Shown here: positions 41,679 to 63,244 of the stretch, in pieces
Numbering within the stretch: the first letter of the stretch is position 1
How the letters are laid out: each line of letters begins with the position of its first letter
Assembly (NCBI GenBank): GCA_023384675.1
Contig: JAHDVK010000005.1
Span: 62,001 to 126,000 of the forward strand
Origin: Bryobacteraceae bacterium
GTDB taxonomy: Bacteria; Acidobacteriota; Terriglobia; Bryobacterales; Bryobacteraceae
Direction of reading: 5' to 3'
DNA: 64,000 nt
The notes under the pieces: model-generated
Databases searched by the model: none
Seen by the model: the letters and a program-made list of their open reading frames with translations, nothing else
What the model was told of the DNA's origin: nothing
Position numbers and translations under genes: made by a program

Positions 41679-42746
41679 CTACTTGCGCCGCAGGGTCTCG
41701 GGCACGCGCACGCCGTCGTGTTCTTCCAGGCGGAAGCGCCACTCGACGGGCAGCGATACCGGTGTGTAACAGACCTTGTCGTCGCAAGCCTGATAGCGGA
41801 ACTCGCCGCGCAGCCGGACGGCGCCGTCCGTTCCGGCCAGTGACTGCAAAGCCTTCTGCTGGGGAAACGTCACATCGCGATAAACGCGGAACCTGCCTTC
41901 GAAGACCGGCACGGTCTCCTGAATCGCGGGCAGGTGCAGGGTCTTTGAGGCCGGGTACGCGGCCTCGGTGGACTTCGCGCCATCGGGCAATTGCATGGTC
42001 CACGAGACCGGAATGTAGCCCGCCACGCCGGGTGCGTACACGTGCATTTTTGCTGGTAGGTCCACTTCGAGGACAAGCCGGACGCGGAAGCCGCCCCGCG
42101 CCGCTGTGTCGCTGGCCCCGTGGCGCAGCCTCAGATGCCTGGTCCGGGTGTCGGCCCAACCCGAGGAGTCCGGCGGCGAGGTCTCGATCAGGATCGTGCC
42201 GGCGGAGTAGCGCTCGCGGTAGTTCTCCTCCAGGTACTTCCGCTGAACCTTGGCATCGGCCCCGATGACGAACGTGCCGGGCCAGGGAACGCCATGGAAC
42301 GGGGTGCCGGCAGGCACGGTTTCATTCAGCAGGCCGAACTCCCGGATCACGCGGGACTCGGGGTCGCTCAGCAGCGGGACGGTGACGCCGCGGCGCCGCG
42401 CGAAAGCGCTCAGAACCTCGACGCTGTCGTAGCTGAGGGCCGCGACGTTCAATCCCTGCTTTGCAAAGGCCGCTTTTTGCTCTTCCAACTCGACCAGTTG
42501 GGTTTTGCACCACGGTCACCAATCGGCGGAACGGTAGATGACAATCACCAGACCGTTCGGGCCCTTGAGCGAGTCGAAGGTTTGCGCGCGGCCGTGCTGG
42601 TCGCGCGCGGTGAAAGCGGGAATGGGCTGGCCAACGGCCGGACCGGGGTCCCGGGGCATCTGCGCGGAGAGCATGGCCGGGACCAGAGAAACCCAAAAGG
42701 CGGCACGGGGAAATATCATCCCCCAAGGATTCGTTCGCAGCCCCAT
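41679..42746 (-). CDS. Selenoprotein: exported Sec-containing redoxin fused to a DsbD N-terminal-like domain
   Basis: Reading through one in-frame TGA (42518-42516) gives a 355-residue protein. Signal peptide (about 1-28), AhpC/TSA-type redoxin domain (about 35-180) in which the TGA is residue 77 in IYRSADW-U-PWCKTQLVELEEQ, exactly where the redox Cys of such redoxins sits, with Cys80 completing UxxC. The rest of the fold continues in frame (LSDPESRVIREFGLL, GTFVIGADAKVQRKYLEE). Residues ~195-345 resemble the DsbD alpha domain, with Cys321/Cys326 in YQACDDKVCYTPVSLPVEW. A hairpin follows the TGA by 14 nt. ATG 42746 chosen; 42719 possible. Likely an envelope peroxidase/thiol reductase. If TGA were a stop, the catalytic site would be lost. 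Confidence 0.85.
42485..42518 (-). promoter_or_regulatory. Sec UGA codon and candidate bacterial SECIS hairpin (redoxin gene)
   Basis: Minus strand: TGA (42518-42516), 14 nt, then CCAACT-GGTCG-AGTTGG (42501-42485), a perfect 6 bp stem with a 5 nt loop starting GGUC. E. coli fdhF SECIS has the loop GGUCU at a comparable distance from its UGA, and the loop guanines are what SelB contacts. Confidence 0.8.
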
Positions 42747-62538: not shown

Positions 62539-62710
62539 GACCGCCTCCCGTGCTTGCTCTCAGACGCCAGCCTCGCGCCGCCGGCTCTCCCATCTCCTCT
62601 TCGGCCAACTTCCCTCTCTCTTCACCGTTTCGGGGGAGATTCTTTCATCCGCCCGGCCGGGCGTGTTAAGCTCAGGGCCAGAATCCCGATTCCCTTCTCG
62701 AGGAGGTCCC

Positions 62711-63244
62711 ATGCGCCATTTCCTTCGGCTCTTGCCGCTCGGTCTCGCGGCCATCGCGCTCTGCGCTCAAACCGCGCCGCCCAAGTCTCATCTCAAAGTG
62801 GGCGACGCCGCGCCCGAACTCGAACTCCGCACCACCGCCGGTTCGCCCTTCAAGCTCTCCGACTACAAAGGCAAGCAGACCGTCGTCCTCGCCTTCTTCC
62901 CCGCCGCCTTCACCGGTGGTTGAACGAAGGAAATAACGGCGTACCAGGCTGGTCTCGCCAAATTCAAAGAAGCCGGCGCGCAGGTCCTTGGCATCTCCAC
63001 CGATAACCTGCCCGCCCTGAGTTACTGGTCCAAGGAGGTATTGAAGCTCGATTTCCCCCTCGCAAGCGACTGGCAGCGCAAAACCGCCGCCGCCTATGGT
63101 GTCCTCAACACCGCCAGCGGCTTTGCCAACCGCGCCAGCTTCGTCGTCGATCCGCAGGGCATCATCCAGCACATCGAAGAGGGTTCCTCGGCCATCAACC
63201 CCGACGGCACCGCCGCCGCCTGCAGCCGCATCAAAGCCCGCTGA
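62711..63244 (+). CDS. Selenoprotein: exported selenocysteine peroxiredoxin
   Basis: Reading through one in-frame TGA (62921-62923) gives a 177-residue AhpC/TSA peroxiredoxin. Signal peptide (about 1-20, ending IALCAQ), HLKVGDAAPELELRTTAG, then LAFFPAAFTGG-U71-TKEITAYQAG, so TGA stands exactly at the peroxidatic Cys of the PxxxTxxC motif. The fold continues: AQVLGISTDNLPALSYW, FPLASDWQRKTAAAYGVL, ASFVVDPQGIIQ. Only Cys171, at the C-terminus, could act as resolving thiol besides signal Cys18. GAGGAGG sits 4 nt before ATG 62711. A SECIS-like hairpin begins 14 nt after TGA. Divergent from the chemotaxis operon. Confidence 0.88.
62921..62959 (+). promoter_or_regulatory. Sec UGA codon and candidate bacterial SECIS hairpin (peroxiredoxin gene)
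   Basis: TGA (62921-62923), 14 nt, then GGCG-T-ACCA-GGC-TGGT-CT-CGCC (62938-62959): outer 4 bp stem, bulged U opposite CU, inner 4 bp stem, loop GGC. A bulged U below the loop and loop guanines are features of the E. coli fdhF SECIS. Weaker than the other hairpin but at the identical distance from the UGA. Confidence 0.7.

Follow-up and report, generated by a model that had tools for sequence, protein, structure and literature searches.

PrxU of Eubacterium acidaminophilum is a cytosolic peroxiredoxin that carries selenocysteine (Sec) at the peroxidatic position of a PxxxTxxU motif. Sec peroxiredoxins with TxxU are treated as an established family in passages of two reviews (PMC13188914, PMC9312934), the first of which lists PrxU under PF00578 with TxxU. 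For the phylum considered here, sections of a 2006 survey report four selenoproteins of three families in Acidobacteria and associate peroxiredoxins in their Sec form with low oxygen (PMC1794560), and part of a 2025 paper gives three selenoproteins in one Acidobacteriota genome (PMC12013277). The main text of the 2026 review (PMC13188914) contains no Acidobacteri-, periplasm or signal peptide, and among titles and the starts of abstracts, drawn from a literature with few subscription journals, we found no description of an exported Acidobacteriota Sec peroxiredoxin. The TxxU type is thus already known, and what the comparative analysis presents as new is a predicted exported Sec peroxiredoxin lineage of Acidobacteriota with a C-terminal Cys.

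The window (the whole stretch of 64,000 nucleotides analysed here) belongs to contig C8 of a 5.7 Mb genome, a draft of 60 contigs that is 97.4% complete, and its host is a soil bacterium. The preliminary description, made from the letters of the DNA, had placed GAGGAGG-ATG, a signal peptide and a downstream fold in one frame around a TGA at the peroxidatic position, and direct reading bears this out: the ATG at 62711 and the TGA at 62921-62923 share a frame that stays open onward to the stop at 63242-63244. The read-through product, MRHFLRLLPLGLAAIALCAQTAPPK...FFPAAFTGG-U-TKE...AACSRIKAR, has 177 residues with U as residue 71, and its assignment to a peroxiredoxin family holds, since Pfam AhpC-TSA (PF00578) matches residues 30-155, spanning the TGA, at 123.4 bits against a gathering cut-off of 26 bits. 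The PxxxTxxC/U motif is present as P64, T68 and U71, with the Pro not universal in the family (many copies from the wider phylum have YVLAFTGGU), and R141, which we take to be the conserved peroxiredoxin active-site Arg, is invariant across a 54-sequence alignment. These features identify the gene as a member of the peroxiredoxin family (PF00578) and a predicted peroxidase. Gene callers that stop at UGA would shorten it to 70 residues.

Features of the predicted exported Sec peroxiredoxin locus, in coordinates of the window.
Feature	Position	Strand	Evidence
Shine-Dalgarno GAGGAGG	62700..62706	+	direct reading
Predicted exported Sec peroxiredoxin CDS, 177 residues, stop TGA 63242-63244	62711..63244	+	direct reading, read-through translation, Pfam
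Predicted signal peptide MRHFLRLLPLGLAAIALCAQ, about residues 1-20	62711..62770	+	translation; hydrophobic leader conserved in homologues
UGA for predicted selenocysteine, residue 71, peroxidatic position of PxxxTxxU	62921..62923	+	direct reading, homologues
Predicted bacterial SECIS hairpin	62938..62959	+	predicted MFE -10.1 kcal/mol; conserved pairs, changes on both sides
Predicted SECIS apical stem-loop, apical loop GGC 62947-62949	62942-62954	+	
TGC, residue C171, C-terminal helix, proposed resolving residue	63221..63223	+	translation, alignment, model

The window protein resembles PrxU in being a peroxiredoxin with predicted Sec at the peroxidatic position of PxxxTxxU, but it scores 76 bits on NCBIfam peroxi_PrxU (NF040737), whose cut-off is 270, and is not the same equivalog; the signal peptide and the conserved C-terminal Cys belong to the window protein. 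An AlphaFold model built from 54 sequences shows a peroxiredoxin fold (mean pLDDT 90.3); residue 71 falls close to the beginning of helix 69-80, and the final helix (165-176) contains residue 171. Among solved structures, those of Sulfolobus Bcp4 and Bcp1 and of M. tuberculosis AhpE come nearest. The Sulfolobus proteins, which we take to be archaeal Cys enzymes, are without Sec, unlike the window protein; they are the best fold matches (PDB 3hjp, 3drn), Bcp4 also by sequence. AhpE (Rv2238c; PDB 1xvw, 4x0x) is 34-35% identical over 151-157 alignment columns, with a TM-score of 0.78-0.79 by query length, but it has Cys at the active site and is described with one Cys, whereas the window protein combines predicted Sec with a further conserved Cys and an N-terminal signal peptide. 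The UxxC Prx-like thiol:disulfide oxidoreductase described in passages of PMC1088965 and PMC13188914 is likewise a PF00578 selenoprotein, but has a UxxC motif where the gene reported here has TxxU.

We collected homologues at two taxonomic depths. Among 257 genomes of the same order, 204 had a match at E 1e-20 or better, and the resulting order set comprises 134 copies, two of them from L077, a Terriglobia MAG near the order, and the remainder fetched from 127 of the 204 matching genomes; duplicate loci (L044, L074-L076) and a paralogue (L078) were left out. The peroxidatic codon of this set is TGA in 106 copies and TGC or TGT in 28, so that the residue at column 71 is Sec or Cys as the preliminary description had anticipated. 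All Sec copies have their TGA at the peroxidatic column, and the few additional TGAs in the matched regions are terminal stops at the C-terminal end. A sample of 396 genomes from the wider phylum gave matches in 63 at E 1e-25, which means that the family is scattered across Acidobacteriota and not universal, and the best 29 copies among the matching loci all have TGA at the peroxidatic codon (29/29). Because TGA and Cys codons exchange at this one position (106 and 28 of 134) and TGA recurs throughout those wider-phylum copies, a chance in-frame TGA is excluded. When named contigs were scanned, only five loci emerged, and the close relatives were placed in Bryobacterales (Acidobacteriota).

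A tree of 163 rows and 139 columns was poorly resolved; it implies 12 Sec/Cys changes, 3 of which are forced by starred branches. Fitch parsimony under one arbitrary rooting gave nine Sec-to-Cys and three Cys-to-Sec changes, a direction that is not secure. In two genomes the exported peroxiredoxin is present in both Sec and Cys form (L099, G060:C135; L080, G123:C299). The enzyme occurs naturally in Sec and Cys versions, in sister species and even together within a single genome. Selenocysteine use is costly; that much of the phylum has kept a predicted exported Sec peroxiredoxin makes the preference for Sec over Cys directly testable.

Peroxiredoxins of the PrxQ/BCP type have a resolving Cys five residues after the peroxidatic residue. 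This arrangement is ruled out for the window protein, in which residue 76 is Thr and the sole Cys after the active site is C171. Of 163 copies, 162 have this Cys or its equivalent, 97-105 residues beyond the active site, and nearly all of them have no other Cys past that site; the 54-sequence alignment, with Sec written as Cys, shows no variation at positions 71 and 171. Conservation in 162 of 163 copies therefore makes two-residue catalysis by Sec71 and Cys171 likely. It is possible, but in our judgement unlikely, that the protein is instead a real Sec peroxiredoxin of the one-residue, AhpE-like kind, in which a small thiol or another protein resolves the active site and C171 has a different role. 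AhpE is among the closest solved structures and is described with only one Cys in part of a published account (PMC8945050), but the near-complete retention of a lone distal Cys argues against such an enzyme here. In an atypical 2-Cys mechanism the bond would join the peroxidatic and resolving residues of one subunit; C171 could also form a bond between subunits or serve some other role.

With two-residue catalysis as the preferred reading, a sequence of steps may be proposed for the enzyme. The hairpin downstream of the UGA would recruit SelB and Sec-tRNA(Sec), and the ribosome would insert Sec at residue 71, as conservation and the machinery suggest; the signal peptide would direct export of the precursor to the cell envelope. 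There the selenolate of Sec71 would reduce peroxide and become a selenenic acid, which Cys171 of the C-terminal helix may resolve to a Se-S bond. Re-reduction of this bond by exported thioredoxin-like proteins fed by DsbD is the least certain step. The window genome contains one frame for a DsbD-type membrane reductase and several thioredoxin-like proteins with N-terminal leaders, which could be the electron source for the peroxiredoxin. Taken as a whole, a predicted exported peroxiredoxin with SECIS-driven Sec71, resolution by Cys171 and thioredoxin-like re-reduction is a reading in which we place high confidence. Gene neighbourhood was considered as a functional link and rejected: with the window included and short flanks examined, a CheW-like neighbour occurs in 13 of 159 loci and a downstream transporter in 2 of 159.

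Export from the cytoplasm via an N-terminal signal peptide is predicted for the Sec peroxiredoxin and supported by its relatives. By a crude hydrophobicity rule, a leader is called in 121 of the 134 order copies, and several of the 13 that fail do so owing to a late start chosen by the script; the best wider-phylum copies have both a hydrophobic leader and the C-terminal Cys in 29 of 29 cases. The exported location, which the preliminary description had singled out, is in this way supported by a hydrophobic leader kept across the family, as judged by the crude rule only. A cytosolic protein starting at an internal codon such as the GTG of V30, a choice the script did make for one homologue (L147), is very unlikely in view of the good Shine-Dalgarno sequence ahead of ATG 62711, the absence of any Met other than the start, and the leaders seen in both sets of homologues.

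The predicted hairpin starts 14 bases after the UGA, and, counting the U of UGA as 1, its apical part occupies positions 22-34 with the loop at 27-29. We compared 125 distinct Sec sequences with 28 Cys sequences. All four inner pairs are formed in 120 of the former and in one of the latter, counts that come from related sequences with a shared history and are not independent events; in a synonymous-codon control using the genes' own frequencies, the inner four pairs formed in a mean of 3.6 of 125 sequences, with a maximum of 10. Of 625 pair cells in the Sec sequences, 596 are formed; in 500 shuffles of the 3' letters the number averaged 566.9 and peaked at 575. Pairs change on both sides, with pair 24-32 being CG in 96 and TA in 25 of the 125 sequences, pair 26-30 AT in 117 and GC in 7, and pair 23-33 AT in 121 and TA in 1. 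Of the 106 order Sec copies, 99 have GGT as the codon at positions 31-33, and GGT makes up 19.6% of glycine codons elsewhere in the same genes. A G lies within the first two loop positions in all 125 Sec sequences, and the window hairpin follows the rule of a small apical loop with G given for bacterial SECIS elements in part of PMC1088965. On this comparative evidence the conserved hairpin is a predicted bacterial SECIS, which persists in UGA genes and has disappeared from Cys genes. Outliers occur in the wider phylum, where L201, L204, L206 and L207 form one to three of five apical pairs at the SECIS columns and L203 forms four of five. One Cys copy (TGC; L102, G083:C18) retains an intact SECIS-like hairpin in a genome that retains SelA, and looks as if it had recently been converted from Sec.

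The selenocysteine machinery of the window genome is complete, with SelA (493 bits), SelB (358 bits), SelD (351 bits) and a tRNA-Sec with anticodon tca (74.7 bits) all above cut-off. The SelD match itself contains one in-frame TGA (L041, G000:C42:114913-115809). Of the 257 order genomes, 208 gave a SelA match, and every fetched order genome with a Sec copy (103/103) has SelA, SelB or tRNA-Sec: 90 were counted by SelA, 11 by SelB and the remaining 2 by tRNA-Sec, SelA not having been found in 13, each of which has SelB or tRNA-Sec. Of the 24 genomes that contributed only Cys copies to the fetched set, 17 have machinery (14 with SelA, 3 with SelB or tRNA-Sec); the 24 include one genome (G215) whose further TGA copy in the match list lies outside that set. 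SelA, SelB and tRNA-Sec were all not found in the other 7 of the 24, among them a four-contig assembly that is 98% complete (G046). Because TGA and Cys exchange at one column, the hairpin is conserved and the machinery is complete, Sec at residue 71 is supported.

Decoding of the UGA as a standard amino acid such as Cys or Trp, whether through a different tRNA or through programmed read-through, would fit with the Cys found there in non-UGA homologues, but we consider it highly improbable in a genome with complete Sec machinery and tRNA-Sec(tca), given a SECIS-type hairpin that UGA genes retain and Cys genes have lost, and machinery that is always found in Sec-form genomes. UGA is a stop in the standard code, yet a true stop yielding a 70-residue peptide is scarcely credible when all copies are conserved beyond the UGA and Cys homologues run through the column. 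That the TGA arose by a mistake in sequencing or assembly, which the draft state of the genome might allow, or that a nonsense mutation has made the gene a pseudogene, has a negligible probability, as the same codon is TGA in 105 other order-set copies and in 29/29 wider-phylum copies and the frame past it is conserved, with invariant residues up to C171. Comparison across the family thus indicates that the TGA at 62921-62923 is neither an error nor a pseudogene mutation. The preliminary description had itself named sequencing error and absent Sec machinery as objections to Sec at the peroxidatic position; the codon is common to many independent assemblies, SelA, SelB, SelD and tRNA-Sec are present, and its central claim is upheld by the TGA/Cys exchange, the hairpin and the machinery. 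The SECIS hairpin, the conserved C171, the family's spread across the phylum and another exported redox gene of the window with an in-frame TGA go beyond that description.

To a broader account of the lineage we would give an even chance. In it, an ancient exported Acidobacteriota peroxiredoxin would pair one Sec with one C-terminal Cys and so place selenium in an oxidising envelope; the SECIS would have frozen the encoded stretch as YQAG(I/L) or YQADI, and loss of the Sec trait would have led to Cys and freed this stretch to vary.

Other redox genes of this genome also contain in-frame TGAs. On the minus strand of the window, 41682-42719 encodes a Prx-like protein that is probably exported; its gene has an in-frame TGA at 42516-42518, in the motif U-P-W-C, and its PF00578 match is followed by a DsbD N-terminal-like domain (PF11412). 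This protein is probably a further selenoprotein, one of the UxxC Prx-like type. A third PF00578 gene of the genome (L004, G000:C36:14605-14964, minus strand) has an in-frame TGA at the peroxidatic position, in the motif FYPADDTPG-U-TAQ, and its BCP-like product is 30% identical to the window protein.
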